Positions 3,234-19,592 of a stretch of DNA of 19,592 nt are shown one piece after another. The stretch spans positions 1 through 19,592 of the forward strand of contig CAMNIH010000020.1 of assembly GCA_946540365.1 (NCBI GenBank). Reading direction: 5' to 3'. The notes beneath the pieces are model-generated. The model worked only from the letters and a program-made list of their open reading frames with translations. It was not told where the DNA came from and ran no database searches. Origin of the DNA: an uncultured Bacteroidales bacterium (GTDB lineage Bacteria > Bacteroidota > Bacteroidia > Bacteroidales > P3). A program made the position numbers and the translations under genes. Each line of letters begins with the position of its first letter. Position 1 is the stretch's first letter.

Positions 3234-3244
3234 ACCTTTTTAAG

Positions 3245-3317
3245 AATGCAGACGCGGCACGCCGCGTCTCTACAACCAACAAACAGAAATGCAGACGCGG
3301 CACGCCGCGTCTCTACA
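3245..3317. repeat. Two tandem copies of a palindromic (REP-like) element
   Basis: A 30-base unit occurs identically at 3245-3274 and 3288-3317, with a 43-base repeat distance. Each unit contains the inverted repeat GACGCGGC-AC-GCCGCGTC (3251-3268 and 3294-3311), flanked by AATGCA on one side and TCTACA on the other. The pair fills the gap between the flippase-like gene and trxB. Such elements usually recur in intergenic DNA and may protect or terminate transcripts. No T-run follows, so classic intrinsic termination is not obvious. Confidence 0.8.
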
Positions 3318-3346
3318 GCCTAAAAACCTTAAACCATAAAACCCCA

Positions 3347-4276
3347 ATGGAACACACACGTTGTCTGATTATCGGCTCGGGCCCTGCGGGCTACACGGCG
3401 GGCATCTACACCTCGCGTGCCGATTTGAAACCCATCTTGTTTGAGGGCGAGCAGCCCGGCGGTCAGCTGACCATCACCACCGAGATCGAGAACTTCCCCG
3501 GCTACCCCGAGGGCATCAGCGGCACGGCCATGATGGACGACCTCAAGCGGCAGGCCGTACGCTTCGGCTGCGATGTGCGGTCGGGCTACATCACCGCCAT
3601 CGACCTCAGCCAGCGCCCCTTCCGCGCCACCGACGACCACGGCAACGAAGTGGAGGCCGAGACGGTCATCGTGTGTACCGGCGCCAGCGCCAAGTGGCTC
3701 GGCATGGACAGCGAGCGTCAGTTCTACGGCGCGGGCGTGTCGGCCTGTGCCACCTGCGACGGCTACTTCTACAAGAACCAGCCCGTGGCCGTGGTGGGCG
3801 GCGGCGACACGGCCTGCGAGGAGGCCAACTACCTGTCGACGCTCTGCTCGAAGGTCTACCTCATCCACCGTCGCGACGAGTTGCGCGCCTCGAAGGCCAT
3901 GCAGCACCGCGTGCTGACCAACCCCAAGATCGAGATGTGCTGGAACTCGAAGCCGGCCCAGATTCTGGGTACCGACCTGGACGGCGTCACCGGCGTCGAG
4001 CTGGAGGACACCCAGAGCGGCGCCAAGCGCACGATCGACGTGACGGGCGTCTTCATCGCCATCGGCCACAAGCCCAACACCGACTTCCTCGGCGGCCAGG
4101 TGGAGCTGGACGCCCAGGGATACATCAAGGTGCAGAGCCCGAGCAGCGCCACCAACGTGGCGGGTGTGTTCGCCGCGGGCGACGTGTGCGACCCCCACTA
4201 CCGTCAGGCCATCGTGGCCGCCGGCAAGGGCGCCTCGGCCGCCATGGATGTGGAACGCTTCCTGCAGGAGAACTAA
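3347..4276 (+). CDS. trxB: Thioredoxin-disulfide reductase
   Basis: This cytoplasmic FAD enzyme passes electrons from NADPH to thioredoxin. Its 309 residues are typical of the low-molecular-weight bacterial type. Visible motifs in order are the N-terminal FAD-binding GSGPAGYTAGIY, the redox-active CATC pair (Cys134 and Cys137), the NADPH-binding VGGGDTACEEA followed by the basic HRRDELRA segment that contacts the NADPH 2'-phosphate, and the C-terminal FAD motif GVFAAGDVCD. All key residues are intact. It begins 29 bases after the second palindromic repeat and lies 17 bases before the porin-like gene. Shared transcription with the porin gene is possible, but no functional link is evident. Confidence 0.97.
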   Translation: MEHTRCLIIGSGPAGYTAGIYTSRADLKPILFEGEQPGGQLTITTEIENFPGYPEGISGTAMMDDLKRQAVRFGCDVRSGYITAIDLSQRPFRATDDHGNEVEAETVIVCTGASAKWLGMDSERQFYGAGVSACATCDGYFYKNQPVAVVGGGDTACEEANYLSTLCSKVYLIHRRDELRASKAMQHRVLTNPKIEMCWNSKPAQILGTDLDGVTGVELEDTQSGAKRTIDVTGVFIAIGHKPNTDFLGGQVELDAQGYIKVQSPSSATNVAGVFAAGDVCDPHYRQAIVAAGKGASAAMDVERFLQEN

Positions 4277-4293
4277 TCCCCCCCGTCCCGTCT

Positions 4294-6408: not shown

Positions 6409-6437
6409 AAAATTCACAACAAATACCAACTACCACA

Positions 6438-7742
6438 ATGAACTGGAAAGACGAATATAAACGCAAAGTAAGCAAACCCGAAGATGCCATCAAAGACATC
6501 CACGATGGCGATTGCGTGGTGCTGGGCCACGCCGCCGCCGTTCCCAAAATCATCCCCAACGCGATGGCGCAACACTGCGAGGACTACAACGATGTCCTCA
6601 TCTTCCACATGACCACCCTCGGCGACAACCCCCTGCTGCATCCGCGCTGCTACGGCCACTTCCGCCACGTGAGCAACTTCCTCAGCGGCAACTCGCGCGA
6701 GGCCGTCAACCACCTCGAGGGCGACTTCTTCCCTGCCTACTTCCACGACGTGCCCGAGATGATCGGCGACGAAATCCCGTGCGACGTGGCCGTCTTCCAA
6801 GCCACCCCGCCCAACGACGAAGGCTACTGCTCGCTCGGCCTCTCGTGCGACTACGCCCTCGCCGCCATCCGCCGCGCGCGTTCCGTCATCATCGAGACCA
6901 ACGAGCTGATGCCCTTCACCTATGGCAACACGATGATCCATGTGTCGCAGATCGACCATATCATCCCCTGCGCCTACCAGCTGCCCGAGCTGCACAGCGA
7001 CGCCCCCTCGGAAGTCGAGCTCGCCATCGGTCGCCACTGCGCCTCGCTGGTCACCGACGGCTCCACCCTCCAGCTCGGCATCGGAGCCATCCCCAACGCC
7101 GTCCTCGCCGAACTGGGCAACAAGAACGACCTCGGCATCCACAGCGAGATGTTCTCCGACGGCGTGGCCGATCTGATGAAGAAAGGCAACATCAACGGCA
7201 GCCGCAAGACCCTCCACAAGGGCAAGGTGGTGGCCACCTTCATCATGGGCTCGCGCGAGCTGTACGACTTCGTCGACGGCAACGAAGCCATCGAGCTCTA
7301 CCCCGTCGACTACACCAACGACCCCATCGTCATCGCACAGCAGTACCGCATGGTGTCCATCAACTCATGCCTCGAGGTCGACCTCATGGGGCAGGTGGCC
7401 AGCGAGACGATCGGCATGCGGCAGTACAGCGGCATCGGCGGACAGATCGATTTCGTGCGCGGCGCCTCGATGGCACGCGAGGGCAAGAGCATCATCGCCA
7501 TGCCCAGCACCGCAGCCGGCGGCAGCATCTCGCGCATCAAGCCCTTCCTCACCCCCGGTTCGGCGGTCAGCACCACGCGCAACGACGTCAACTACCTGGT
7601 CACCGAATACGGCATCGCACGCCTCAAAGGGCGCACCCTGCAGCACCGTGCCGAGGACCTCATCCGCATCGCTCACCCCGACTTCCGCCCTACCCTCATC
7701 GAAGAGTACGAGCGCCGCTTCCAGTGCAAATACAGCGAATAA
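6438..7742 (+). CDS. Acetyl-CoA hydrolase/transferase family CoA-transferase (4-hydroxybutyrate type)
   Basis: The enzyme moves CoA between acetyl-CoA or butyryl-CoA and a short carboxylic acid, in fermentative acid metabolism. Its 434 residues are the usual length for 4-hydroxybutyrate or butyryl-CoA:acetate transferases. The catalytic glutamate that forms the glutamyl-CoA intermediate is Glu237 in GIHSEMFSDG. The QLGIGAIPNAV loop before it and the GIGGQIDFVRGAS motif after it are also typical of the family. The true substrate (4-hydroxybutyrate, butyrate, succinate or acetate) cannot be decided here. The start at 6438 gives the family N terminus. It follows the porin-like gene by 29 bases; no other butyrate or succinate pathway gene is nearby. 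Confidence 0.88.
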   Translation: MNWKDEYKRKVSKPEDAIKDIHDGDCVVLGHAAAVPKIIPNAMAQHCEDYNDVLIFHMTTLGDNPLLHPRCYGHFRHVSNFLSGNSREAVNHLEGDFFPAYFHDVPEMIGDEIPCDVAVFQATPPNDEGYCSLGLSCDYALAAIRRARSVIIETNELMPFTYGNTMIHVSQIDHIIPCAYQLPELHSDAPSEVELAIGRHCASLVTDGSTLQLGIGAIPNAVLAELGNKNDLGIHSEMFSDGVADLMKKGNINGSRKTLHKGKVVATFIMGSRELYDFVDGNEAIELYPVDYTNDPIVIAQQYRMVSINSCLEVDLMGQVASETIGMRQYSGIGGQIDFVRGASMAREGKSIIAMPSTAAGGSISRIKPFLTPGSAVSTTRNDVNYLVTEYGIARLKGRTLQHRAEDLIRIAHPDFRPTLIEEYERRFQCKYSE

Positions 7743-7785
7743 ATTTGGTTAAAAGAAAGAAAAAAGTCTCAACAATCAAATTATT

Positions 7786-7800
7786 TGTGTATATTTGCAC
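7786..7800 (+). promoter_or_regulatory. Promoter -7 region for the gene at 7943
   Basis: TATATTTG at 7790-7797 matches the Bacteroidetes -7 box. The surrounding 15 bases (TGTGTATATTTGCAC) are identical to those at 19256-19270, before the ExbB-like gene. No clear TTTG lies 19-21 bases upstream, so the -33 element is weak. The leader would be about 140 bases, A-rich with a C-run near 7820; I see no structured element in it. Confidence 0.6.
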
Positions 7801-7942
7801 CGTGATTTGAATCGAATCCCTCCCCCCCACGGAACGTCGAAGAACGGACAAACCAAACACAGACAACACAGAATCACGCATATACAAACAACAAGAAAAA
7901 CATACCGACCGTATAAAACATTATTCCAATAAAACAAAAAAA

Positions 7943-8578
7943 ATGAAAAAAACAGTTCTCCTCATCGCACTGGCCCTCTTCCTGTGCAGCGAATCGAAAG
8001 CCCAGTATGTTGCTGACGCGGGCAGTCTCTACACCTCGACCCAGCTCAGCCTCAGCGACAACCAACCGACCGCTTTCACCAGCATCTACAACACCCCCAT
8101 GCCCACCACCGACTTTGCCATGAACGACCAGCTGAACACGCAGCAGCTCGCTTCGCGCAAGGGATGGGGTATCGCCTGCATCATCTCGGGTGGTCTGACC
8201 ATGGTCAGCGGTGCTTCTGTCTGGCTCTTCGGAGGCATGTTCAATAACGCCGCCTCGGCCGTCGGCTCCGATCCGGAGTTTGCCAACGATCCCGAAATGC
8301 AACAAGGGCAACAAGCCGTACAAGCTGTCGGCAACGGAGTGAAGACCATCGGCATCATCGGCACCGTCGCGGGTGCCGCCCTGGTGGGTACCGGTATCTG
8401 GCTCGTCTCGTCCGACGGTGGCAGCTACTCGCGCGGTGGTCGTTCGCATGGCCGTCGCGGCGGCCGTCGTGGCGGTCGTCGTCATGCCGACCTCTTCCAG
8501 CAGCCCTCCATCCAGCCCGACTGGGGCCTCTGCCTCAACGTCACCCCCGCCAATGCCGGACTGACCCTCGTTTTCTAA
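7943..8578 (+). CDS. Hypothetical exported protein with two hydrophobic segments and an RG-rich stretch
   Basis: I do not recognise this 211-residue protein. It starts with a clear signal peptide (residues 1-20, cleavage SKA-Q). A polar region follows, then two glycine-rich hydrophobic segments (about 74-97 and 135-157) separated by an acidic, Gln-rich loop. Next comes an Arg/Gly-repeat stretch (about 164-180: RGGR, RRGG, RRGG) and a C terminus ending in hydrophobic LTLVF. The likely location is inner membrane or periplasm. The glycine-rich paired helices could span the membrane as a hairpin. It stands alone between its own promoter and a strong terminator, so it is monocistronic. Function unknown. 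Confidence 0.8.
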   Translation: MKKTVLLIALALFLCSESKAQYVADAGSLYTSTQLSLSDNQPTAFTSIYNTPMPTTDFAMNDQLNTQQLASRKGWGIACIISGGLTMVSGASVWLFGGMFNNAASAVGSDPEFANDPEMQQGQQAVQAVGNGVKTIGIIGTVAGAALVGTGIWLVSSDGGSYSRGGRSHGRRGGRRGGRRHADLFQQPSIQPDWGLCLNVTPANAGLTLVF

Positions 8579-8594
8579 ACCACCACACAACAAT

Positions 8595-8633
8595 AAAAAG
8601 AGGAGCTGCCCGTTCGGACAGCTCCTCTTTTTT
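8595..8633 (+). terminator. Intrinsic terminator after the gene at 7943
   Basis: The stem AGAGGAGCTG pairs with CAGCTCCTCT, with one mismatch and two further pairs near the GTTC loop. An A-run precedes it and a run of T follows, giving a near-symmetric, potentially bidirectional terminator 16 bases after the stop codon. Confidence 0.9.
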
Positions 8634-8639
8634 AAAACC

Positions 8640-8650
8640 GACATTTGCAC
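8640..8650 (+). promoter_or_regulatory. Possible promoter -7 box for the FKBP gene
   Basis: GACATTTGCAC differs by one base from the TAnnTTTG consensus and is followed by the GCAC seen at the two better promoters. No -33 match is visible. The ATG lies about 43 bases downstream, and a promoter is needed here because a terminator ends just upstream. Confidence 0.4.
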
Positions 8651-8693
8651 ACTTATGCAATAAAACAACCCAAACGCCGTTATAACAAGCATT

Positions 8694-9302
8694 ATGGACA
8701 AACTTAGCTATGCATTGGGCCACAATATTGGCCACCAACTGATTGGTATGGGCTTGGGAAAGAGCCTGAACATCGACGATTATGCTGACGCCATTCGCGA
8801 TGTGATGGAGGGCCGGCCGGAACAAATGAGCGCCGCCGAAGTGCAGCAGGTGCTGGAACACTTCTTCAACGAGCTGGAGGAGCGCCAGCAGGCCGAGGCC
8901 GCCGAGCGTGGCCGCGCCGCACGCGCCGAGGGCGAGGCTTTCCTGGCCGAGAACAAGAAGCAGCCTGGTGTGTCGACCACCGCCAGCGGCCTGCAGTACA
9001 CCATCTTGCAGGAGGGCACAGGCCGCCAGCCCAAGGCCAGCGACACCGTGCGCTGCCACTACGAAGGGCGACTCATCGACGGCACGGTCTTCGACTCCAG
9101 CTACCGCCGCGGCATGCCTGCCGACTTCGGCCTGCGCCAGGTCATCAGCGGATGGACCGAGGGCGTGCAGCTCATGAAAGAGGGCGCCAAGTACCGCTTC
9201 TTCATCCCCTACAACCTGGCCTACGGCGAGCGTGGCGCCGGCGCCGACATCCCGCCCTATGCCGCCCTGGTGTTCGACGTGGAACTGATCAAAGTGCTCT
9301 AA
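8694..9302 (+). CDS. FKBP-type peptidyl-prolyl cis-trans isomerase
   Basis: The protein speeds cis-trans isomerisation at proline bonds and acts as a folding helper. Its 202 residues show the two-domain layout of the FklB/FkpA/Mip group. A helical N-terminal dimerisation domain (about residues 1-95) includes a charged helix rich in Glu, Arg and Ala. The C-terminal FKBP domain (about 96-202) has VRCHYEGRLIDGTVFDSS, the VISGWTEGVQLMKEGAKYRFFIP core, LAYGERG and the closing PPYAALVFDVELI strand. No signal peptide is present (it starts MDKLSYALGHNIG), so it is probably cytoplasmic, as FklB. It is a single-gene unit converging on pruA. Confidence 0.93.
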   Translation: MDKLSYALGHNIGHQLIGMGLGKSLNIDDYADAIRDVMEGRPEQMSAAEVQQVLEHFFNELEERQQAEAAERGRAARAEGEAFLAENKKQPGVSTTASGLQYTILQEGTGRQPKASDTVRCHYEGRLIDGTVFDSSYRRGMPADFGLRQVISGWTEGVQLMKEGAKYRFFIPYNLAYGERGAGADIPPYAALVFDVELIKVL

Positions 9303-9325
9303 TCGTATTTATAATATAGACAGAA

Positions 9326-9357
9326 AAAAGGCTGGCGCCAATCGGTGCCAGCCTTTT
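9326..9357. terminator. Bidirectional terminator between the FKBP gene and pruA
   Basis: AAAAGGCTGGCGCC (9326-9339) pairs with GGTGCCAGCCTTTT (9344-9357) around an AATC loop, with one G-T pair. T-rich DNA follows on the plus strand and the A-run gives a T-run on the minus strand. It can therefore end both convergent genes. Confidence 0.9.
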
Positions 9358-9374
9358 CTTTTTGCATCTGACCT

Positions 9375-11009
9375 TTATTCAGCGGAGCTGATAAACGGAT
9401 ACTTGTAGTCGCGTGCCGGGTCGAAGGTCTCCTTGACGGCCTGCGGGCTCACCCAGCGCAGCAGGTTGAGGTAGCTGCCGGCCTTGTCGTTCGTGCCGCT
9501 GGCGCGCGCACCGCCGAAGGGCTGCTGACCCACCACGGCTCCCGTGGGCTTGTCGTTGAAGTAGATATTGCCTGCGGCGTTCTTCAGCGCCTCGTAGCCC
9601 GTGCGGAGGGCCTTGCGGTCGGTGGAGAAGATGGCACCCGTCAGGGCGTAGGGCGACGTGGTGTCGCACAGACGCAGCGTCTTCTCGTAGTCCTTGTCGT
9701 CGTAGACATAGATCGTGATGATGGGTCCGAAGATCTCCTCGCACATCGACTTGTAGTCGGGTTTCTTGGCCAGGATGACGGTGGGCTCGATGAACCAGCC
9801 CTTCTTCTTGTCGCACTTGCCGCCGAAGACGATCTCGGCATCCTTGCTCTTCTTGGCGTGGTCGATATAGTTCTTGCAGTTGTCGAACGAGGCCTCGTCG
9901 ATCACCGCATTGACGAAGGCCGAGAAGTCGCGCACATCGCCCATCTTGATTTCCTTCAGCATCTTGCCGACGATCTTCTCCACCTTGGGCCACATCGAGG
10001 CAGGCACGTAGGCACGGCTGGCGGCCGAGCACTTCTGACCCTGGAACTCGAAGGCACCGCGCACGATGGCCGTGGCCACCTGCTCGGCGTCGGCGCTCTT
10101 GTGGACGAAGATGAAATCCTTGCCGCCCGTCTCGCCCACGATCTTCGGGTAGGTACGGTACTTGTCGATATTCTGGCCGATGGCCTTCCAGAAGCCCTTG
10201 AAGGTCGACGTGCTGCCGGTGAAATGGACACCCGCCAGGTTCTCGTCGGAGAAAGCCACCTTGCCGATCAGCGAACCGCTGCCCGGCAGGAAGTTCACCA
10301 CGCCGTCAGGCAGACCCGCCTCCTTGTAGATCTTCATCAGGATATAGTTCGACAGCAGGGCCGTGGTCGAGGGCTTCCAGATGCACACGTTGCCCATCAG
10401 CACCGGGCTCAGGCACAGGTTCGAAGCAATCGAGGTGAAGTTGAACGGCGTGATGGCGAACACGAAGCCTTCCATGGCGCGGTAGGTCACGTAGTTCAGC
10501 GTTCCCTTGTCGCTGCAGGGCTGGTCGCTGTAGATCTGGCTTGCATAGAAGGTGTTGTAGCGCAGGAAATCCACCAGCTCGCACGCCGAGTCGATCTCGG
10601 CCTGCATCGTCGTCTTGCCCTGGCCCAGCATCGTCGCCGCATTGATCAGGTAGCGGTACTTGCCGCTCACCAGCGTGGCGATCTTCATCATCACGCTCGC
10701 ACGGTCGATCCAGGGCGTCTCGGCCCATTCCTGGCGCGCCTTCAGGGCCGCCGCGATAGCAGCCTGCACCTCCTTCTCGCCCACCTTGTGGTAGCGGGCC
10801 AGCACATGGTGGTTCTCCGTGGGCATCACTATCTCGCCCATCTCCTTCGTCTTCACCTCCTTGCCACCAATGATGGCGGGGATCTCGGTCACCTTGTTAT
10901 AAAGCTCGTCCAGGGCTTTGCGGATCTCCTTGCGCTCGGGACTGCCGGGAGCATAACCCTTCACGGGCTCGTTCTCGGGCTTGGGAAACATGAAAATACT
11001 GTTGTTCAT
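9375..11009 (-). CDS. pruA: L-glutamate gamma-semialdehyde (1-pyrroline-5-carboxylate) dehydrogenase
   Basis: This NAD-dependent aldehyde dehydrogenase oxidises glutamate semialdehyde, the open form of pyrroline-5-carboxylate, to glutamate. It is the last step of proline degradation and of ornithine degradation. Its 544 residues match the stand-alone ALDH4-type enzyme. Catalytic residues are visible: Glu293 in VGETGGKDF and nucleophile Cys327 in GQKCSAASRAYVP. The FAITPFNFTS cofactor loop and the C-terminal PFGGARASGTNDKAG motif are also present. No proline dehydrogenase domain is fused and none is nearby. The gene is transcribed alone from a promoter near 11052-11059 and ends at the shared terminator. 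The link to the agmatine genes through arginine and ornithine metabolism is only suggestive. Confidence 0.96.
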   Translation of the reverse strand: MNNSIFMFPKPENEPVKGYAPGSPERKEIRKALDELYNKVTEIPAIIGGKEVKTKEMGEIVMPTENHHVLARYHKVGEKEVQAAIAAALKARQEWAETPWIDRASVMMKIATLVSGKYRYLINAATMLGQGKTTMQAEIDSACELVDFLRYNTFYASQIYSDQPCSDKGTLNYVTYRAMEGFVFAITPFNFTSIASNLCLSPVLMGNVCIWKPSTTALLSNYILMKIYKEAGLPDGVVNFLPGSGSLIGKVAFSDENLAGVHFTGSTSTFKGFWKAIGQNIDKYRTYPKIVGETGGKDFIFVHKSADAEQVATAIVRGAFEFQGQKCSAASRAYVPASMWPKVEKIVGKMLKEIKMGDVRDFSAFVNAVIDEASFDNCKNYIDHAKKSKDAEIVFGGKCDKKKGWFIEPTVILAKKPDYKSMCEEIFGPIITIYVYDDKDYEKTLRLCDTTSPYALTGAIFSTDRKALRTGYEALKNAAGNIYFNDKPTGAVVGQQPFGGARASGTNDKAGSYLNLLRWVSPQAVKETFDPARDYKYPFISSAE

Positions 11010-11051
11010 AGAAACGTGATTAAAACAATTAATGTTACTTTTTTACGGGTG

Positions 11052-11059
11052 CAAATTTA
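11052..11059 (-). promoter_or_regulatory. Promoter -7 box for pruA
   Basis: Read on the minus strand this is TAAATTTG, an exact TAnnTTTG match followed by CA, about 43 bases upstream of the pruA ATG. No convincing TTTG is found 19-21 bases further upstream. Confidence 0.6.
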
Positions 11060-11216
11060 CAAAATTATTTCCATTCCCCGGTGAAAAAGTTTTCAACCAT
11101 CCGTCAACCGCCCGTGCCACTGGCACATCAAACGACGTTAAAACCACTGATTGAATGACACTTCACCACTGCTGTCATCGCCTCAGCTCTCTTCCTTTCA
11201 CCCCCGAAGACAAACG

Positions 11217-11261
11217 AAACAGGAAACCACTTCGGCACTTCGCCACAGCGGTTTCCTGTTT
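11217..11261 (-). terminator. Terminator-like hairpin after the S41 peptidase gene
   Basis: AAACAGGAAACC (11217-11228) pairs perfectly with GGTTTCCTGTTT (11250-11261) in a 12-bp stem. A 21-base loop can form a small inner GGC/GCC stem. On the minus strand the stem ends in TTT-CG-TTT, a weak T-tract. It begins 25 bases after the stop of the S41 peptidase gene. The rest of the gap up to pruA (11062-11216) holds only a small GTGCC/GGCAC hairpin at 11114-11126 and no gene that I can support. Confidence 0.65.
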
Positions 11262-11286
11262 ATCTGGGTTCGAGTTCCAGCTCCCC

Positions 11287-12888
11287 TCAGCGGGCAAACT
11301 GGCGCAGGGCTTCGCGGAAGCCGTCGTCGGCCTCCTTCATCACCATATAGTAGTAGTCGATGCCGAACAGGTTGCGGGCCACCTGTGCCTTGAGCATCAG
11401 CCACATGTAGCGGTCGCTGTGGGCCGTGCGCTCAGGCTGGGCGGCCTCCTTCTCGGTGTCGCGCACGATCCCCTTCTCGAGGGCCTCGGCGGTGAGCAGG
11501 CTGTCTAAGTGGAACGAGTCGTAGTTCTCGAGGAAAAGTTCGAAAGTCTTGACCTTGGGGTCGCGGCGGTGCTGGTCGGCCCACTGCAGGGGGAACGAGT
11601 TGAGGAGTCCCTTGCCGCGCAGCGAGATGTAGTAGTCGCTCAGCCGCATGGTGTCCATCGGCACGAAGACATCGGGCATGATGCCGCCGCCGCCGTACAC
11701 CGTGCGCCCACCGCTGGTGGTGAAACGCAGCGAATCGGGGAAGTGGATCGAGTCGGCGTTGACCATCTCGCCATGGAGAAAGCGGTTGTTCACATCCTGG
11801 CGGTAGGCGTCGCTGCCCTCGTCGTAGGGGCGCTGGATGCAGCGGCCGCTGGGCGTGAAGTAGCGCGCCGTGGTCAGCCGCAGCTGGCTGCCGTCGCTGA
11901 GGGCGAACATGCGCTGCACCAACCCCTTGCCGAACGAGCGGCGACCGACGATGATGCCGCGGTCCCAGTCCTGCACGGCACCGCTGACGATCTCGCTGGC
12001 CGAGGCCGACCCCTCGTCGATGAGGACCACGAGACGATGGTCGACGATCTCGCCGGCGGCGTTGCGCACGGCGCGGAAGTTGCCACGCCCGTTGGCGTGG
12101 TAGTTCTGCCGCGGCGTCCGGCGCCCCTCTTGGTACACCACGAGCTGTCCCCGGTCGAGGAACTCGTTGGCCAGACCATGCGCAATGTCGAGGTAGCCGC
12201 CCGTGTTGCCGCGCAGGTCGAGGATCAGCGACGTCATGCCCTTTCGGCTAAGCGACCGGAGGGCCTTGCGGAACTCGTCGACCGACGTGCGCGCAAAGCG
12301 GATCAGGCGTATGTAGCCCACACTGTCGTTGGCCATGAAATAAGTGTCGATGCTGTAGATCGGGATCTTGTCGCGCACGATATGGAAGTTGTAGACCGAC
12401 CCCTGGCGCATGATGTCCACCACCACGGTGGTGCCCTTCTTGCCGCGCAGATGGCGGAACACAAAGTCGTTGCGCGCACTATCGCCCGTGGCGTTGATGC
12501 CGTCGATGCTGATCAGCTTGTCGCCGATCATCACGCCCACCTTCTCGCTGGGGCCGCCGTCGATGACGCTCTGCACCACGATGGTGTCGTTGACGATCTG
12601 GAACGAGATGCCCACCCCCTCGAAGTTGCCCTGCAACCCCTCGTTGGCGCGATCCACGTCGCTCGCGGGGATATAGACACTGTGGGGATCCAGCGCCCGC
12701 AGCATCGCGTTGATCGCCTCCGTGCCCATGCGGTCCATGTCGGGCGACTCGGTGTAGTTGCCGTCGATCAGGCGCATCACCTCGCCCACACGCTGCTCGC
12801 CGGCGGTGGCCGTGTCGGGCACCACCACCCGCTGCCCCATGGCGCTGCCGCCAACACAGAGCAGCACTGCCAGAATCAACTTCTTCAT
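11287..12888 (-). CDS. S41 family C-terminal processing peptidase with PDZ domain
   Basis: This exported serine protease resembles CtpA/Prc, which cut envelope proteins at their C termini. Its 533 residues comprise a signal peptide (about 1-19, GSAMG-Q), a helical N-terminal part containing LDPHSVYIP (about 20-80), a PDZ domain (about 85-165: GVGISF, GPSEKVGVMIGDKLISIDG) and the protease core. Catalytic Ser296 in GSASASE and Lys321 in FGKGLVQ are spaced 25 apart, as in known members; the DLRGNTGG segment is present. The C-terminal 120 residues are helical and charged. The ATG at 12888 shares ATGA with the stop of aguA, implying translational coupling. The same frame stays open far upstream inside aguA; that extension is spurious. 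Confidence 0.94.
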   Translation of the reverse strand: MKKLILAVLLCVGGSAMGQRVVVPDTATAGEQRVGEVMRLIDGNYTESPDMDRMGTEAINAMLRALDPHSVYIPASDVDRANEGLQGNFEGVGISFQIVNDTIVVQSVIDGGPSEKVGVMIGDKLISIDGINATGDSARNDFVFRHLRGKKGTTVVVDIMRQGSVYNFHIVRDKIPIYSIDTYFMANDSVGYIRLIRFARTSVDEFRKALRSLSRKGMTSLILDLRGNTGGYLDIAHGLANEFLDRGQLVVYQEGRRTPRQNYHANGRGNFRAVRNAAGEIVDHRLVVLIDEGSASASEIVSGAVQDWDRGIIVGRRSFGKGLVQRMFALSDGSQLRLTTARYFTPSGRCIQRPYDEGSDAYRQDVNNRFLHGEMVNADSIHFPDSLRFTTSGGRTVYGGGGIMPDVFVPMDTMRLSDYYISLRGKGLLNSFPLQWADQHRRDPKVKTFELFLENYDSFHLDSLLTAEALEKGIVRDTEKEAAQPERTAHSDRYMWLMLKAQVARNLFGIDYYYMVMKEADDGFREALRQFAR

Positions 12889-13925
12889 ACGGCAGGCATC
12901 TGTTGGCTGAGGCAATGGAACGAGCCGAGGCCCCACACGATATCGGTCGAATCGATTCCCACCACCTCGCGGTCCGGGAAGCAGGCCTCGAGGATGTAGG
13001 CCGCCTCGTTGTCGGTCAGACAGCGGTAGGTGGGGAAGATCACCTTGCCGTTGGCCAGGTAGAAATTGGCGTAGCTCGCCGGCAGCCGCTGGCCTTCGTA
13101 GAAGACCACGTCGGGCATCGGCAGCTCCACGATGTCGGGCTGCTTGCCGTTGGCCAGACGCGCCCGCTTCAGTATGCTGAGGTTCCGCTGCAGCGGCTCG
13201 TAGTTCTCGTCCCACGTGTCGTACTCGACGGCCGTGATGATCCGGTCCGGCGCCACAAAGCGCGACAGGTCGTCCACGTGGCCGTCCGTGTCGTCGCCCA
13301 CAATGCCGTCCGCCAGCCAGATGATATTGTCCACCCCGTAGTAATCCCTCAGGTAGCCCTCGATTTGATCCTGGTTCAGATGGGGATTGCGGTTGGGGTT
13401 GAGCAGGCAGGAGGTTGTCGTCAGCAGGTCGCCGCAGCCGTTCACGTCGATCGAGCCACCCTCCATCACGATGCCGGGCGAGAAGAGCGGCAGCTCGGGC
13501 ATCAGCTTGTGGATCCGCACCGGCACCTCGGTGTCCAGCTCGTAGGGGTACTTGCCGCCCCAGGCGTTGTGGTTCCAGTTGACGATGGCCCTCGGCGCAG
13601 AGGCGTCGCGGTTCAGCAGGAACGCAGGCCCGTGGTCGCGGCACCAGGCGTCGTTGCTCGGGATGATATGGAGGCGGATGTTCTCCATGCGGGTGCCGAT
13701 GGCCTCCAGCTCGCGCGCCACATGGTCGCGCATCGCCTCGTCGTCCACATTGATGTGGACCGTCTCGCCCTCGGCCAGCGTCTTCACAAAGAGGTGGTAC
13801 GACGGGTAGATCGTCTCAATCTTGCCGGGCCACGAATCGGGGTTCTTCGGGTAGGTGAGCCATGTGGCCTCGTGCCGCGCCCACTCGGCGGGCATATAGT
13901 AGCCTTGTTCTTTCGGAGTCATCAT
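12885..13925 (-). CDS. aguA: Agmatine deiminase
   Basis: AguA hydrolyses agmatine to N-carbamoylputrescine and ammonia, the first step from decarboxylated arginine to putrescine. It belongs to the PAD-type guanidine-modifying superfamily. Motifs present are NDAWCRDHGPAF, the acidic-His pair in VMEGGSID and DTDGHVDD, and the nucleophile Cys338 in GLGSFHCLSQQ (numbered from this start). At 346 residues it is close to the usual 345-370. ATGs at 13934, 13925 and 13922 are all in frame. I chose 13925 because its ATGA overlaps the stop of the endonuclease gene, the same coupling as at the aguA-S41 junction. Its pathway partner aguB lies 2 kb upstream, separated by the restriction-modification pair. 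Confidence 0.94.
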   Translation of the reverse strand: MMTPKEQGYYMPAEWARHEATWLTYPKNPDSWPGKIETIYPSYHLFVKTLAEGETVHINVDDEAMRDHVARELEAIGTRMENIRLHIIPSNDAWCRDHGPAFLLNRDASAPRAIVNWNHNAWGGKYPYELDTEVPVRIHKLMPELPLFSPGIVMEGGSIDVNGCGDLLTTTSCLLNPNRNPHLNQDQIEGYLRDYYGVDNIIWLADGIVGDDTDGHVDDLSRFVAPDRIITAVEYDTWDENYEPLQRNLSILKRARLANGKQPDIVELPMPDVVFYEGQRLPASYANFYLANGKVIFPTYRCLTDNEAAYILEACFPDREVVGIDSTDIVWGLGSFHCLSQQMPAV

Positions 13926-14926
13926 TTGCAGCATTTATGAATTTCCAGAAACTTGTAGCCGTTGAGATGCACCAAATGCTCTGGCGCATCAGCTATCCAT
14001 ACTTCAGTTTCCCATGCTATGTTCAAGCAATACTTTTGATACATTTTTCTATTCAAGAATGTAGTAAAGAACACAACATTGGCGGTACACCCTGCAAGAT
14101 GTTTTCTCAATCGGTTGACACGTAGCTCGTCCATCGGACCTGAACTGTGTACAGCTTCTATCAAAAACAGCAGGTTTTTGTCCTTGCTGTACGCAATAAC
14201 ATCCGGCAGTTCTTCATGTTTCAGCGGAAAAAAATGCAGTGCATCCAACAACGCATCATCCTTATAGAGATATTTGTCCGATGTGTCGCCGACATAAAGC
14301 ACTTGCGCACCCATTCCCCATTTGGGAAGGAACTCCTCTATAATCTTTTTTTGCAGCAGATTGTGTTCTCCCGCCGACAATTCCAACGCAACACCTGAAG
14401 GCAACGTAACAGGTATTCTCGCCAATGCTCTCTTTCTCTCAAGTTCCTCGCGCACTTTTTTTCTCACCTCCATGAAATAGGCAAGTTTTTCCTCCCAGCG
14501 ACGTGTTCCAAATGTCTTCAGAAGACTGGCGAACTGAGCATCGAGCGCATAGCCTCTATTGGGGTTGTTGGTGGCAGATTGGTCTATTGATGAAGAGTTG
14601 ATAACAAGACCATCATCCACCAACATCTTCAAGTCTTTACGACGGATGTCGTCATACGAACCAGACGAAATATGCTCACCATAATGCTCATTTTCAAATT
14701 CTATAATATCTCTCGTTTTAAGAAATACCCCATTCATCACAGACTTTGCCTCCTTAAACGACGACACGATCTGTCCCGTTGCAAGGCAGGCTCCTGCCAT
14801 TTTTTCCTTCCTACGGTCTGAAGGCAATTCACAGACAGGTATTCCAACAGCATGAAGAACGTCCAACATGTCTGAATACAGCCTTTTGATTGCCTCGCTT
14901 TTATCTCCGGAAAATTTTATACGCAT
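13922..14926 (-). CDS. BsuBI/PstI-family type II restriction endonuclease
   Basis: This probable site-specific DNA endonuclease has 334 residues. The N-terminal half (about 1-170) is helical and charged, fitting the helix-turn-helix-like N-terminal domain of the family. The C-terminal half carries the catalytic region: VLYVGDTSDKYLY, then LPDVIAYSK with Asp242, then LIEAVHSSGPMDELR with Glu257. This forms the P-D...E-A-V arrangement typical of PstI and BsuBI rather than the common D-E-x-K. PstI and BsuBI cut CTGCAG, but the specificity here is not established. It overlaps the methyltransferase stop by 10 bases, and its own stop overlaps the chosen aguA start. Hand counts of two 60-base samples give 37% and 40% GC, against 67% in adjacent aguA. 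This indicates foreign origin. Confidence 0.88.
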   Translation of the reverse strand: MRIKFSGDKSEAIKRLYSDMLDVLHAVGIPVCELPSDRRKEKMAGACLATGQIVSSFKEAKSVMNGVFLKTRDIIEFENEHYGEHISSGSYDDIRRKDLKMLVDDGLVINSSSIDQSATNNPNRGYALDAQFASLLKTFGTRRWEEKLAYFMEVRKKVREELERKRALARIPVTLPSGVALELSAGEHNLLQKKIIEEFLPKWGMGAQVLYVGDTSDKYLYKDDALLDALHFFPLKHEELPDVIAYSKDKNLLFLIEAVHSSGPMDELRVNRLRKHLAGCTANVVFFTTFLNRKMYQKYCLNIAWETEVWIADAPEHLVHLNGYKFLEIHKCCK

Positions 14927-15942
14927 ACGGCATTAAAAATATTTTGTTCTCGAAATCTGTTTATTGAATATATGTCTGTCCTCTGCCTCACCGACATTTT
15001 ATACGTGTCTTTCACAGCCAAGGCTAGTTTGTATGCCAGCAACGGAGGCACGGCGTTACCTATCTGTGTGAACTGCTGCACTTCGTTGCCACAGAACTCA
15101 AACCAGTCTGGAAAGCTCTGTAGCCGGGCGGCCTCACGTTGCACTATACGCCGACGGCGCCCGTCCGGCAACTTCACTCGCTGCATGTCGCTCGTCGCAC
15201 CAGCAAGGTTTCGGCACGTGATGGTTCGTGCCGGGCGGTCGGCATAAAGGTCACGCGGATTTATACAGGCCGATTTCCGTTCATATTCAGCTATATACCT
15301 ATCCTGTGCCGGGGTCAGGAAGTGACACCCTTCCACCTCTGCATTCATCGTATCCCCTATGGCTTCGCCCACCGTGGTCTTCCTCGACTCCTTCGCAGGA
15401 AAGCGGAACACCGACTTGTGTCCAACCACAATAATGCGCTCTCTGTTCTGCGGCACACCGTAGTCAACCGCATTGACACACCGGAACTCAACAATATAGC
15501 CTAAATTACCGAGACTTTCAAGGATAAGGTCGAGATACCAGCGATGTGAATATGCCAGATTACGCACGTTTTCAAACAGAAAAACTTTAGGTTCAAGCCG
15601 CTTGACAGCATCTATAAATATCGGGAAGCCATCCCGTGCATCCTGCATGCCGAGCTGCTTTCCCCTGACACTGAAAGGCTGGCACGGCGGTCCGCCGATG
15701 ACAATGTCAGCCATGGGGTAATCATAGCCAACCTCCAGCTTGGTCAGATTGCACTCACCTTTGAGGTTGCGGTTATATGTATCCACAGCCGCAGGCACCA
15801 TCTCATACCCGACAGTCTCGAATCCCGCCGCCTCAAAGCCAAGGGACAACCCACCACATCCCGCAAAGAGGTCTATTACCTTGGCACTCTCCGTGACACG
15901 AGGCTGGAGGACGGTGTTGATGCAATCTATATATGCAGACAT
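14917..15942 (-). CDS. DNA (cytosine-5-)-methyltransferase
   Basis: This 341-residue modification enzyme transfers a methyl group from S-adenosylmethionine to carbon 5 of cytosine, protecting host DNA from the neighbouring endonuclease. The conserved motifs appear in the usual order: I, DLFAGCGGLSLGFEAAGF (residues 24-41); IV, GGPPCQPFS with catalytic Cys87; VI, FENVRNL; VIII, QNRERIIVVG; a short target-recognition region containing RPARTITCRNLAG; IX, REAARLQSFPDWF; and X, QIGNAVPPLLA. All catalytic residues are intact. Its ATG lies two bases after the aguB stop and its end overlaps the endonuclease start by 10 bases, so methylation would be made before cutting. The target sequence cannot be predicted from the sequence alone. 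Confidence 0.96.
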   Translation of the reverse strand: MSAYIDCINTVLQPRVTESAKVIDLFAGCGGLSLGFEAAGFETVGYEMVPAAVDTYNRNLKGECNLTKLEVGYDYPMADIVIGGPPCQPFSVRGKQLGMQDARDGFPIFIDAVKRLEPKVFLFENVRNLAYSHRWYLDLILESLGNLGYIVEFRCVNAVDYGVPQNRERIIVVGHKSVFRFPAKESRKTTVGEAIGDTMNAEVEGCHFLTPAQDRYIAEYERKSACINPRDLYADRPARTITCRNLAGATSDMQRVKLPDGRRRRIVQREAARLQSFPDWFEFCGNEVQQFTQIGNAVPPLLAYKLALAVKDTYKMSVRQRTDIYSINRFREQNIFNAVCV

Positions 15943-15944
15943 GT

Positions 15945-16811
15945 TCAGTCGATATATCGTTTGGTGATGTCGCCATAGGAGTCAATGCGGCGGTCGCGCA
16001 GGTAGGGCCAATGGCGGCGGTAATGGTCGGTCTCGTCGAGGTCGAGGGTGGTGATGTGCGTGGCCTCGTCGTAGTGCGGCGCCTGGTAGAGGACGCGACC
16101 GAAGGCGTTGGTCACGAAGCTGCCGCCCCAGAACTGCATGCCGCCCTCGCGGCCCGTGCGGTTCACGCTGACCACCGGCACCCCGTTGGCCACGGCGTGG
16201 CTGCGCTGGATGGTCTGCCAGGCGGCGTACTGCTCGCGGTTGTCGTGCTCCTTCTGGCGCACGTCCCAGCCGATGGCGGTGGGGAAGAAAAGGATCTGCG
16301 CCCCCTTGAGGGCCGTGATGCGGGCCGCCTCAGGGTACCACTGGTCCCAGCAGATGAGCACCCCGATCGTCGCAAAGCGCGTCTTGAAGACCTTGTAGCC
16401 CAGGTCGCCGGGCGTGAAGTAGAACTTCTCGTAGTAGCCCGGGTCATCGGGGATATGCATCTTGCGGTACTTGCCCAGATAGGAGCCGTCGGCATCGATC
16501 ACCGCCGTCGTGTTGTGGTAGAGTCCCTCGGCCCGTTTCTCGAACATCGAGCACACCAGCACCACACCCAGCTCCTTGGCCAGGGCCATGAAATGCTGCG
16601 TCGTGGGCCCCTCGGGGATGGCCTCGGCCAGACGGAAGTTCTCGTAGCGCTCCTCGTCGCAGAAATAAAGCGACGCGAACAACTCCTGCAGACAGATGAT
16701 CTGCGCCCCGCCGGCAGCCAACTCGCGCACCTTCTCGGTGTAGCGCTCTATATTCTGTTGCTTGTCCTCCACGCAGCTCATCTGCGCGATTCCAACCTTC
16801 ACTTTGTTCAT
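15945..16811 (-). CDS. aguB: N-carbamoylputrescine amidase
   Basis: AguB is a nitrilase-superfamily amidase that hydrolyses N-carbamoylputrescine to putrescine, CO2 and ammonia, completing agmatine use. The catalytic triad is intact: Glu43 in CLQELFASLYF, Lys117 in YRKMHIPDDPGYYEKFYF and Cys154 in VLICWDQWYPEAAR. The ENFRLAE and FFPTAIGWD segments also fit AguB better than other amidases. At 288 residues it has the usual length. The frame is open to 16967, but the ATG at 16811 begins the conserved MNKVKVGIAQM strand and lies just after a promoter box, so I use it. It heads the five-gene minus-strand operon and is parted from aguA by the restriction-modification genes. Confidence 0.95.
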   Translation of the reverse strand: MNKVKVGIAQMSCVEDKQQNIERYTEKVRELAAGGAQIICLQELFASLYFCDEERYENFRLAEAIPEGPTTQHFMALAKELGVVLVCSMFEKRAEGLYHNTTAVIDADGSYLGKYRKMHIPDDPGYYEKFYFTPGDLGYKVFKTRFATIGVLICWDQWYPEAARITALKGAQILFFPTAIGWDVRQKEHDNREQYAAWQTIQRSHAVANGVPVVSVNRTGREGGMQFWGGSFVTNAFGRVLYQAPHYDEATHITTLDLDETDHYRRHWPYLRDRRIDSYGDITKRYID

Positions 16812-16833
16812 CTCTATTGGTATTTTGGAATTG

Positions 16834-16841
16834 CAAAAATA
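16834..16841 (-). promoter_or_regulatory. Promoter -7 box for the aguB operon
   Basis: On the minus strand this reads TATTTTTG followed by CA, matching TAnnTTTG, 23 bases upstream of the aguB ATG. The -33 region has no exact TTTG. Transcription would carry aguB, both restriction-modification genes, aguA and the S41 peptidase gene. Confidence 0.6.
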
Positions 16842-16879
16842 CACAAAAAATTCCATTCCGCCACACATCGCCTCTTTTT

Positions 16880-16893
16880 TTTTGCAAGCAAAA
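16880..16893. repeat. Small inverted repeat in the aguB/TPR intergenic region
   Basis: TTTTGC-AA-GCAAAA is a perfect 14-base palindrome 39 bases beyond the aguB -7 box. It lies in the 308-base divergent gap (16812-17119). It could be an operator, but this is only positional inference. Confidence 0.4.
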
Positions 16894-16958
16894 GAACCTA
16901 TCGCCATATCAACCAACACCTTACACACCCACATCAAACGCACCAGCTGCCTCCTTCC

Positions 16959-17014
16959 CCTCTGCATCCTCCCTGCATCCCCTCTGCATCAAGTAGGCAT
17001 CAAGCAGGCATCCA
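16959..17014. repeat. Five GCATC repeats at exact 11-base period
   Basis: GCATC begins at 16964, 16975, 16986, 16997 and 17008, each exactly 11 bases apart. The first three are preceded by CT and the last two by AG. The last copy also forms an inverted repeat with GGATGC at 17023-17028. The period is about one DNA turn and not a multiple of three, which argues against a coding origin. The block is about 105 bases upstream of the TPR gene and about 120 bases from the aguB promoter. Confidence 0.8.
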
Positions 17015-17119
17015 CGCCCCCCGGATGCGGAGCAAGGGTCCGGGTCGTCACTGCAAAAAGGAATATAAAAACATGGCGCAATACAATAAAATCATCTCCT
17101 CGCCGTTAGGACAATCATC

Positions 17120-18235
17120 ATGATACGAAAGGCACTCATAGCAACGGTGACCCTGCTGCTGGCGACCGCGACGGCCTCGGCGCAAGGGTTGCTGGCCAAA
17201 GGCATCAACGCCGAGCAGAAGGGGCTGACCGACCTGGCCGAGGACTACTACCGCCAGGCCGCCGACACCAGCGCGACAGCCCGTCTGCGGATGGGCATCC
17301 TGCAGGAGGAGCGCGAGCGCTACGCCGACGCCGCCCGCTGGCTGGTGCGGGCCGACAGCAGCGCCCTGGCGCTGAGCCATCTGGCCCTCTGCCAGGCCGA
17401 GTTGCGGCAGTGGGCCGACGCCAAGCGCAGCGCCGAGAAGGCCATCGAGCTGGCCGACACCGCCGCCCACAGCGTGCGCAGCAGCGCCATGGCCACGCTG
17501 GCCCTGGTCTACTGCGCCGAACAGAGCTACACCAACGCCCTGCACTGGGCCCGACAGGCCGACAGCGAAGACCCCCGCTCGGCACGCGCCCACAACGTCA
17601 AGGGGGTGGTGCTCTACAGCCGCGGCAACGAGAACGAGGCCATCGCCGCCTTCCGCGACGCCCTCAAGGTCGACCCCGCCAACGTCGACGCCCATTTCAA
17701 CCTCGGCACCATCTACTGCCGCCGCAAGAACTACGACCTGGCCATCACCACCCTCCGCAGCGGCCTCAAGCAGCATCGCCGTTCGGTCAAGCTGTTCTAC
17801 TGCTTCGGGTGGGCCTACCTGCTCAAGGGCGACAACGAGCACGCCATCGAATGCCTGCAGAACGTGCTGGAGCTCGACTCGACCTACGTCAACGCCTACA
17901 ACCGGCTGGGCGACATCTACTTCGAGCGTGCCGAATACAACCGTGCCATCGAGCAGTACCACCGCGCCATACACTTCGGGCCCCGCCTGACCGAGGCCTA
18001 CCGCCTGCTGGGACGCACCCACGCCGAGCAGGGCGACTTCGGCAAGGCCATACGGCAGTACCAGAAAGCCGTCGACATCGACCCGCAGGACGGTGACACC
18101 TACTGCCGCATCGCCGAGCTCTACGCCCGTCAGAACCAGCCCAAACGCGAACAGGCCAACTACAAACGCGCCGCCCGACTCGGCAACGCGGCCGCCCGCG
18201 ACTGGTGTACCAAACATGGAATCGCCTATCAATAA
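17120..18235 (+). CDS. Secreted tetratricopeptide repeat protein
   Basis: This 371-residue protein starts with a signal peptide (about residues 1-21, ATASA-Q). The rest consists almost entirely of 34-residue TPR units, roughly eight to nine. The clearest are those with NVDAHFNLGTIYCRRKNYDLAI, YVNAYNRLGDIYFERAEYNRAI and LTEAYRLLGRTHAEQGDFGKAI. TPRs form a curved helical scaffold for protein contacts, so a periplasmic or membrane-associated adaptor role is likely. No catalytic domain is present. The start at 17120 gives the signal peptide directly. I see no TAnnTTTG box close upstream, so its promoter is undefined. The prenyl synthase gene follows after 11 bases, suggesting co-transcription. 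Confidence 0.88.
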   Translation: MIRKALIATVTLLLATATASAQGLLAKGINAEQKGLTDLAEDYYRQAADTSATARLRMGILQEERERYADAARWLVRADSSALALSHLALCQAELRQWADAKRSAEKAIELADTAAHSVRSSAMATLALVYCAEQSYTNALHWARQADSEDPRSARAHNVKGVVLYSRGNENEAIAAFRDALKVDPANVDAHFNLGTIYCRRKNYDLAITTLRSGLKQHRRSVKLFYCFGWAYLLKGDNEHAIECLQNVLELDSTYVNAYNRLGDIYFERAEYNRAIEQYHRAIHFGPRLTEAYRLLGRTHAEQGDFGKAIRQYQKAVDIDPQDGDTYCRIAELYARQNQPKREQANYKRAARLGNAAARDWCTKHGIAYQ

Positions 18236-18246
18236 TTAATATTATT

Positions 18247-19230
18247 ATGTACAACTTAAAATATTTCCTTGGACAGGTGGAACGCCTCTTCGCCGACGAG
18301 TGCTTCCTTGCCGAACCGCACGAACTCTACGAGCCCATCGACTACACGCTGCGTCTCGGCGGCAAGCGCATCCGCCCCACCCTGCTGCTGGCGGCCAACG
18401 CCCTCTTCGGCGGACGCGAGGAGGAGGCGCACGGCGCCGCCCTCGGCATCGAGACCTTCCACAACTTCACCCTGCTGCACGACGACCTCATGGACCGCTC
18501 GCCCCTGCGCCGCGGCCAGCCCACGGTCTACCGCAAGTGGGACGAGAACACGGCCGTGCTCAGCGGCGACACCATGTTCGCCCTCGCCTGGCGCTACTTC
18601 CTGCGGCAGCCCTCGCCCCGCCTGCGCGACATCCTCAACTGCTTCAACGAAACCGCCATCGAGGTCTGCGAAGGACAGCAGAAGGACATGAACTTCGAGC
18701 GCCTGGGCCTGGGCCGCGTGAGCCTCGACGACTACCTCGACATGATCCGCCAGAAGACCGCCGTCCTGCTGGCCGGCGCCCTCAAGGTCGGAGCCCTCTA
18801 CGCCGGCGCCCCGCAGGAGCAGGTGGACCTCCTCTATGCCTTCGGGCTGCACCTCGGCCTGGCCTTCCAGATGCAGGACGACCTGCTCGACGGCTACGGC
18901 GACACCGCCGTCTTCGGCAAGAAGACCGGCCAGGACATCCGCGACAACAAGATCAGCTACCTGCCCCTGACGGCCCTCACCCTGGCCGACGAGCCCCGGC
19001 GCAAGGAGCTGATGGACCTCTTCGCCGCCAAGGACAACATGGACGAGGAGGAGAAGGTGCGCCGCGTGATGGCCCTCTACGACGCCGTAGGCCTGCGGCC
19101 GGTGGTCGAACAGAACATCGCCCGCGAGTTCCAGACCGCCCGTCAGACCCTCGACCGCATCGCCGCCGACGAGGTCCGAAAGACCCCGCTGCGCGAGCTG
19201 ATGGAGACCCTCGACGGAAGAAAAAAATGA
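18247..19230 (+). CDS. Polyprenyl diphosphate synthase (trans-isoprenyl, FPP/GGPP-type)
   Basis: The enzyme joins isopentenyl diphosphate units to an allylic diphosphate to make the chain used for quinones or cell-wall lipid carrier. Its 327 residues are typical. Both metal-binding aspartate motifs are intact: DDLMD at Asp79-Asp83 and DDLLD at Asp211-Asp215. The GGKRIRP substrate motif (38-44), RRGQPT and the KKTGQD loop are also present. The first motif lacks the two-residue insertion of IspA-type farnesyl synthases. Phe74, five residues before it, is a bulky position that tends to limit chain length, so a short product is plausible but not proven. The start at 18247 (MYNLKYFL) is preferred over 18205, which lies inside the TPR gene. 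Confidence 0.92.
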   Translation: MYNLKYFLGQVERLFADECFLAEPHELYEPIDYTLRLGGKRIRPTLLLAANALFGGREEEAHGAALGIETFHNFTLLHDDLMDRSPLRRGQPTVYRKWDENTAVLSGDTMFALAWRYFLRQPSPRLRDILNCFNETAIEVCEGQQKDMNFERLGLGRVSLDDYLDMIRQKTAVLLAGALKVGALYAGAPQEQVDLLYAFGLHLGLAFQMQDDLLDGYGDTAVFGKKTGQDIRDNKISYLPLTALTLADEPRRKELMDLFAAKDNMDEEEKVRRVMALYDAVGLRPVVEQNIAREFQTARQTLDRIAADEVRKTPLRELMETLDGRKK

Positions 19231-19241
19231 CATTTTTTCTT
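19218..19241 (+). terminator. Possible AT-rich terminator hairpin overlapping a stop codon
   Basis: The A-rich run ending in ATG at 19218-19229 is the inverted repeat of CATTTTTTCTT (19231-19241), around the TGA stop of the prenyl synthase gene. The stem is AT-only apart from two pairs and is followed by TGGTTTT. It may be a weak terminator or simply a chance run next to the promoter. Confidence 0.35.
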
Positions 19242-19270
19242 GGTTTTAGAAAAAATGTGTATATTTGCAC
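19239..19270 (+). promoter_or_regulatory. Promoter for the ExbB-like gene
   Basis: TATATTTG at 19260-19267 fits the -7 consensus, with CTTG at 19239-19242 as an imperfect -33 box 17 bases upstream. The 15 bases 19256-19270 are identical to the promoter region at 7786-7800. The leader before the ATG at 19331 is about 60 bases and AT-rich. Confidence 0.65.
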
Positions 19271-19330
19271 AACGAAATATAATAGGCAAAGTATAAACAA
19301 TAAATTAATAATCAACATTCTAAAAACATC

Positions 19331-19592
19331 ATGAAAAAAGTTTTTGCTTTGATGTCAATAGTCGGACTGTTGACATTTGCCAACTTCAATGACGTGAAGG
19401 CGCAGGATCAACCCGCTGCCGAAGCCACAGAACAGGTCACCGATTCGGCCGCTCCCGCCGTTGCCGAGGAGGCCGCCGCTCCCGTCGAGGAAGCCGTTGC
19501 CCCCGCCGACGACACCAAGTCGTTCCACCAGGTGCTGAAAGAAAAGTACATCCAGGGTGGTGCCGGCTGGATGACCCCCGTGCTCCTCTGCC
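19331..19592 (+). CDS. MotA/TolQ/ExbB family proton-channel protein, N-terminal part (cut by window end)
   Basis: Only the first 87 residues are in the window. They show a signal peptide (about 1-24, VKA-Q) and an Ala/Glu/Pro-rich, acidic low-complexity stretch (about 25-62). Then comes KSFHQVLKEKYIQGGAGWMTPVLLC, which resembles the segment leading into the first membrane helix of Bacteroidetes ExbB-like proteins. These proteins form the proton-driven motor that energises outer-membrane transport with ExbD and TonB. The identification rests on that short segment and the recalled family layout, since the channel helices lie beyond the window. Its own promoter precedes it. Expected neighbours downstream would be exbD-type genes. 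Confidence 0.65.
   Translation, partial: MKKVFALMSIVGLLTFANFNDVKAQDQPAAEATEQVTDSAAPAVAEEAAAPVEEAVAPADDTKSFHQVLKEKYIQGGAGWMTPVLLC

Follow-up and report, generated by a model that had tools for sequence, protein, structure and literature searches.

A type II restriction-modification cassette at the aguB-aguA stop/start junction in Bacteroidales

Results

A restriction-modification pair lies between aguB and aguA

We analyzed a 19,592-nucleotide stretch of DNA from an uncultured Bacteroidales bacterium (assembly GCA_946540365.1, contig CAMNIH010000020.1, positions 1 to 19,592; hereafter the window), in which the genes of a putative type II restriction-modification (R-M) system, a DNA methyltransferase (M) and a restriction endonuclease (R), lie between aguB and aguA, two genes for consecutive steps from agmatine to putrescine. 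Read on the minus strand, the gene order is aguB - M - R - aguA - S41 peptidase gene, the last of which is probably part of the same operon as aguA (Table 1). M and R are oriented like their neighbors, and both open reading frames (ORFs) are where a first-pass annotation of this sequence had placed them. The genes are tightly packed: the TGA stop of aguB is followed after 2 nt by the ATG of M, M and R overlap by 10 nt, and the TGA of R and the ATG of aguA have one base in common. The longest aguA ORF begins at 13934, upstream of the conserved start. The best NCBIfam models of aguA and aguB are agmatine deiminase and N-carbamoylputrescine amidase, with matches that are strong but under the curated cut-offs.

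M carries the sequences DLFAGCGG, GGPPCQ, ENV, QNRER and GNAVPP of cytosine-C5 (m5C) methyltransferases, which we take to be motifs I, IV (PCQ), VI (ENV), VIII and X, and its closest solved structures are M.HaeIII and M.HhaI. R has both domains of the BsuBI/PstI/SdaI endonuclease family above cut-off, an N-terminal helix-turn-helix and a C-terminal nuclease domain (PF17728 + PF06616); residues D242 and E257 are invariant across 41 aligned sequences, and SdaI (structure 2ixs, E 8.6e-47) is the sole solved relative found by sequence. With adjacent genes, open frames and the motifs of both families, the pair has the make-up of a type II R-M system at the gene level, and both genes appear intact from their sequence. 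Compared with the 331-residue R of two related loci (L042 and L054, described below), the window R is three residues (CCK) longer at its C-terminus, as it has no stop at the position used there and reads on to the TGA of TGATG. A protein 99% identical to the window R (P0001, with 8 member sequences) has the same C-terminal extension.

Table 1. Coordinates of the genes and signals at the agu locus of the window.
Feature	Position	Strand	Family match or remark
Promoter-like motif of Bacteroidota type, TATTTTTG (TAnnTTTG), just upstream of aguB	16834..16841	-	
aguB, N-carbamoylputrescine amidase, 288 aa	15945..16811	-	TIGR03381 1.1e-96; PF00795 1.3e-59
M, cytosine-C5 DNA methyltransferase, 341 aa	14917..15942	-	PF00145 2e-62
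R, BsuBI/PstI-family type II restriction endonuclease, 334 aa	13922..14926	-	PF06616 8.5e-59; PF17728 1e-28
TGATG, R stop overlapping the conserved aguA start	13920..13924	-	TGATG also joins aguB and aguA in 7/9 closest relatives
aguA, agmatine deiminase, conserved start MTPKEQ at 13922	12885..13922	-	PF04371 2e-114; TIGR03380 1.9e-81
S41 (C-terminal processing) peptidase	11287..12888	-	PF03572 5.2e-47; overlaps the aguA stop

The junction is empty in most relatives

An aguA scan of the GTDB genome collection gave 110 loci, of which the best 80 were analyzed. Two of these (L021 and L065) had no aguB match, aguA lying at most 300 nt from the contig start, and in a third (L041) aguB was oppositely oriented; the co-oriented aguB-aguA set therefore comprises 77 relatives and the window (n = 78). 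The spacer between the two genes was at most 160 nt in 73 of the 78 loci, including 23 in which it was at most 10 nt. In an order-wide sample, aguA (E<=1e-60) was present in 44 of 344 genomes, 36 of which had aguB on the same contig; according to counts derived by hand from the listed positions, 22 of the 44 had the order aguB-aguA with gaps of at most 224 nt, 14 had the order aguA-aguB, and 8 had the genes on different contigs. None of the 22 aguB-aguA loci has room for the cassette, and both samples agree with the earlier statement that the two genes are usually adjacent. Two genomes with the opposite gene order (G218 and G425) have 2.7 and 3.6 kb of other genes between aguA and aguB.

The remaining five of the 78 loci include L075, which just has a longer spacer (224 nt), and L079 (1166 nt), where aguB and aguA are separated by a Y1-type (IS200-like) transposase gene that GC-rich repeats flank (L079:4829-6000). 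The other three are the window, L042 and L054, the last two being distant lineages from other assemblies, and each has M followed by R between aguB and aguA. The pair is present in 3 of 78 loci and absent in 75; the same flanks thus occur both occupied and empty, a feature shared with minimal mobile elements. Comparing the agu locus in close relatives was the check that the first-pass annotation had proposed, and most of them indeed lack the cassette.

Ranked by aguA identity, seven of the nine closest relatives (L001, L002, L004, L005, L007, L008 and L009) join the two genes through the aguB stop/aguA start overlap GACTGATGAC; in the other two, the genes are 32 nt (L003) and 4 nt (L006) apart. 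The window aguB is 84-98% identical to that of L001-L040 where present. At the window joints the sequence runs ...GACTGA, insert, TGATGAC..., with a TGA at both ends of the insert because the latter sits between aguB and an intact TGATG. No remnant of M or R was detected in the empty aguB-aguA junctions at E<=1, a threshold that very short remnants could escape.

Composition and distribution point to horizontal insertion

The cassette differs in base composition from the genes around it. Gene GC is 0.437 in R and 0.518 in M versus 0.632 in aguA and 0.629 in aguB, which upholds the lower GC reported in the first-pass annotation, although its value of 67% for aguA was slightly high. At third codon positions (GC3) the values are 0.457 and 0.567 for R and M versus 0.891 and 0.893 for aguA and aguB, and the 11 window genes with a Pfam or NCBIfam match range from 0.82 to 0.92 (porin, 0.82; FKBP isomerase, 0.83; acetyl-CoA hydrolase, 0.86; P5C dehydrogenase, aguA and aguB, 0.89 each; TPR protein, 0.90; S41 peptidase, 0.91; flippase-like protein, pyridine nucleotide-disulphide oxidoreductase and polyprenyl synthetase, 0.92 each). 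This comparison excluded ORFs with no family match and those lying antisense to named genes, whose values are lower (0.42-0.67). In L042, GC3 is 0.39 in the cassette versus 0.51-0.53 in the agu genes, and in L054 the corresponding values are 0.54-0.56 versus 0.84-0.87.

Seven related genomes were searched whole for R; five (G001, G002, G003, G006 and G007) have no match and the other two are carriers. Within the family of L001, R matches were found in 10 of 190 genomes: two are close and both lie at aguB-aguA, six are 30-36% identical, one is fragmented (G035), and one is marginal. M was found at E<=1e-90 in three of the 190, namely the same two carriers and G035. The empty sites in close relatives, the low GC3 and the presence of a close R in 2 of 190 family genomes are in line with the horizontal insertion proposed in the first-pass annotation: insertion into the agu operon is well supported, and the cassette most likely entered the window lineage by horizontal transfer.

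The G035 fragments of R lie on two contigs and represent two decayed copies. The first (L105:6505-7908) has an open m5C methyltransferase frame beside an R that matches residues 1-27 and 235-331 only. The second (L106:5240-5431, minus strand) comprises the final ~60 codons of a related R, located at the rnfE-rnfA joint, where it seems to mark a past insertion into the rnf operon; on this evidence, such a cassette probably entered one or more further operon joints. An rnfA search returned 20 loci, one of which (L112) is the L106 locus itself and three of which gave no measurement; among the 16 others, the rnfE-rnfA gap was at most 65 nt in 14 and ~1.3 kb in L116 and L119. At the latter two, the joint contains other genes, one of them thioredoxin-like by eye, and degenerate repeats.

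The endonuclease is paired with a cytosine-C5 methyltransferase and no near donor was seen among phages or plasmids

Beyond the family, at E<=1e-60, R was found at 47-55% identity in 5 further genomes of 393 from the order and in 6 of 395 from the class. Ten of these 11 loci have M (56-67% identical) immediately upstream of R in the same orientation, and the contig ends at the eleventh; no agu gene match was found around the 10 M-R loci within the stretches fetched. In one locus a Vsr mismatch endonuclease, a usual companion of m5C enzymes, directly follows an M-R pair of this type (L103:7365-7748). The partner seen in the window, a PF00145 cytosine-C5 enzyme, is thus shared with 10 of 10 Bacteroidia loci with upstream sequence. 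The plasmid homologues inspected differ in this respect: R homologues in three of 92 matching plasmid records (33-35% identical to R) all adjoin an Eco57I-type methylase, which is of the adenine-N6 type. Taken together, these loci suggest a Bacteroidota sub-group of PstI-family systems coherently paired with an m5C methyltransferase, a less expected combination.

A phage or virus origin of the cassette and a plasmid origin were considered and rejected. R gave no match in IMG/VR, whether searched with a single sequence or with the 41-sequence alignment, and the three phage records that match it are all below 60% identity, which speaks against a phage or virus origin. The 92 plasmid matches likewise all fall below 60% identity, and hence no near plasmid donor was seen. 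A transposon- or insertion-sequence-borne system was also discarded: the 2.0 kb between aguB and aguA are filled by M and R with no transposase, and the repeats near the cassette ends are only weak inverted pairs that are not common to the three carriers (13 nt, 85% complementary, at 13867/15892 in the window; 15 nt, 80%, inside the flanking genes in L042).

A single promoter-like motif precedes the operon

The TAnnTTTG motif upstream of aguB, which we take to be the Bacteroidota -7 box, occurs at the same position in 12 of 12 aligned loci, chosen by us from 79 distinct ones, and also in L042 and L054. It is the only minus-strand TAnnTTTG between 17119 and 12885, and neither the window cassette nor that of L054 contains any. 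By eye, an inverted repeat GGAATT...AATTCC surrounds the motif in the window (16812-16870) and is not evident in the aligned relatives. A sigma-70-type scan of both strands from 11000 to 17150, with a consensus that may not be that of the host, gave six matches, where shuffled sequence gave 2.7 on average (sd 1.9); five of the six, all weak, lie on the minus strand in the cassette (15521-15493, 15550-15521, 15171-15143, 14697-14669 and 14442-14415). These were given little weight because Bacteroidota use another consensus, and the cassette may contain a weak internal promoter. Terminator-like sites numbered four versus 5.5 expected (sd 2.4), which is not above chance, and M contains two of the four on the minus strand. 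Judged from the sequence, a transcript common to aguB, M, R and aguA is likely. The suggestion in the first-pass annotation that the polyamine promoter drives the defence genes is therefore plausible, given the sole upstream motif and the overlapping genes, with the five weak matches in the cassette as a point against it.

The three carriers are separate tips on the agu trees

On trees built from aguB+aguA, several nodes of which are weakly supported, the three carriers are separate tips. Fitch parsimony on 79 taxa requires three changes, whereas a single gain would have to be followed by 24 losses (protein tree) or 19 (DNA tree). L051, the sister of L054 (support 1.0), has an empty junction with a 64-nt spacer that is not recognisable by eye next to the L054 cassette; identity between the two loci is 97% across a 983-bp block with aguB and 91% across aguA. 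Among the carriers, the agu genes are 78-88% identical, and M and R are 77-79% identical in every pair. The parsimony count, the lack of remnants in empty junctions and the low GC3 together favor repeated acquisition.

Discussion

Our analysis identified a type II R-M cassette at the aguB-aguA stop/start junction, and we consider it fairly probable that this junction is a shared docking place at which such cassettes were gained at least three times within this Bacteroidales family. Several results weigh against our overall reading of the cassette. M and R have diverged to the same extent among the carriers, with 4-fold sites 22-31% identical and near saturation, and for this reason no recent donor can be seen. 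The flanks show no recombination tract, and the gene ends of the window resemble those of its own clade in a partial comparison; in 100-nt steps, L054 and L051 are 95-100% identical in aguB and 84-96% in aguA, with no clear gradient. The nearest relative of the window on the agu trees varies, being L006 on the protein tree (support 0.06) and L005 on the DNA tree (0.99). The R tree, built from 120 listed of 4057 matches, joins the three carriers in one clade (0.972) with 15 other proteins, among which P0001, P0004 and P0007 pair with the carriers; if the remaining clade proteins, P0002, P0003, P0005, P0006, P0008-P0014 and P0120, all lie at aguB-aguA, a single old residence becomes likelier. 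In addition, the AT-rich cassette of L042 contains three TAnnTTTG matches, and CTGCAG is not clearly depleted in the window (15 sites versus 18.2 expected), although 19.6 kb is too little sequence for this count.

The main competitor is a single ancient insertion at aguB-aguA, inherited vertically and cleanly deleted in most lineages. The cassette is placed identically in the three carriers, within ~10 bases of the flanking stop and start, its divergence among them is close to that of aguA (78-82% identical), and the agu and R trees agree in how they separate the window from L042 and L054; the decayed L105 and L106 copies show, moreover, that such a cassette can be lost. However, this history would require 19-24 losses, several of them in relatives that restored the TGATG overlap, and would leave empty junctions without remnants, whereas the two losses seen elsewhere left them. 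A GC3 of 0.46-0.57 would also be unexpected had the cassette resided for so long in a genome whose own GC3 is near 0.9. We therefore regard a single ancient insertion as rather unlikely, while an older residence accompanied by frequent loss and exchange may be part of the history. A somewhat different possibility, which we advance tentatively, is a promoterless R-M cassette specialised for overlapping operon stop/start junctions, which would insert while leaving both neighbors undisturbed, draw its transcription and translation from the host operon and be repeatedly regained at aguB-aguA across a Bacteroidales family, and for which the rnfE-rnfA remnant would be a second junction.

It is improbable that restriction serves as an arm of polyamine metabolism, with agmatine or putrescine levels setting the expression of M and R. 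The operon position, the overlapping genes and the single upstream Bacteroidota-type motif would suit such regulation, but there is no regulator gene among the agu, M and R genes and the window matches no Rfam family at gathering thresholds; the sporadic distribution of the cassette is also more what one would expect of a passenger than of an adaptation. The proposal in the first-pass annotation that restriction is tied to agmatine metabolism accordingly finds no support. The sharp difference in composition could also suggest a foreign contig joined to the agu operon by faulty assembly or binning. Such a chimera is very hard to reconcile with joints that are exact to the gene, with the same arrangement in the other assemblies that carry L042 and L054, and with a 99% identical R with the same C-terminal extension in the protein collection.

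Repeated gain at the shared docking place could have come about in either of two ways: by homologous exchange via the conserved genes on either side, which is how minimal mobile elements are incorporated, or by repeated illegitimate insertion, with selection keeping both flanking genes intact. Once inserted, the cassette would need no promoter of its own, being read through from the aguB promoter, and translational coupling over the overlapping start and stop codons could let M be expressed before R; aguA and the S41 peptidase gene would stay expressed through the same coupling and read-through. M would be expected to modify cytosine C5 within a palindromic site, the same one at which R would cut unmethylated phage or plasmid DNA.

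An R-M cassette between conserved genes is of a known kind, and the present one may work like the minimal mobile elements of Neisseria, where the pheS/pheT locus is itself such an element, with genes between pheS and pheT. Passages in PMC3898611 and PMC3082526 describe these elements as whole-gene cassettes between two conserved genes that are incorporated by homologous recombination, and one in the latter reports, for the pheS/pheT locus of N. meningitidis, a type II R-M system that varies from strain to strain. Like them, the agu cassette lies between conserved adjacent housekeeping genes, is present or absent by lineage, has type II cargo, and includes no integrase or transposase. Unlike them, its lineages are different species rather than strains, its flanks are polyamine genes with the stop/start overlap preserved, and homologous incorporation can at most be inferred. 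Self-mobile type II R-M units have been described by the Kobayashi group (PMC3031569 and PMC3874152), and a passage of PMC3031569 names 'operons' among R-M gene locations. The agu cassette resembles such units in having no mobile-element partner at its ends and an empty site in relatives, and differs in that its carriers share no long target duplication or terminal inverted repeat, with at most the 3-bp TGA repeated. A narrow literature search found no paper on BsuBI/PstI/SdaI endonucleases, on m5C pairing or on R-M systems in housekeeping operons.

What this locus adds is the same junction in three lineages, a stop/start overlap that is kept, a remnant in a second operon and an m5C-paired sub-group; its recurrence at one operon junction and the consistent pairing of a PstI-family R with a cytosine-C5 methyltransferase are the less expected aspects. 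With at least three carriers, and with empty sites in the close relatives of this rumen-type Bacteroidales bacterium, it offers a clean natural case for how defence genes enter and persist in housekeeping transcription units, and the cytosine-C5 partner marks a Bacteroidota sub-group of PstI-family systems that is open to recognition-site assay. If regain at the same site is true, conserved operon junctions would hold a stock of defence cassettes that go unnoticed when one searches for 'defence islands'.

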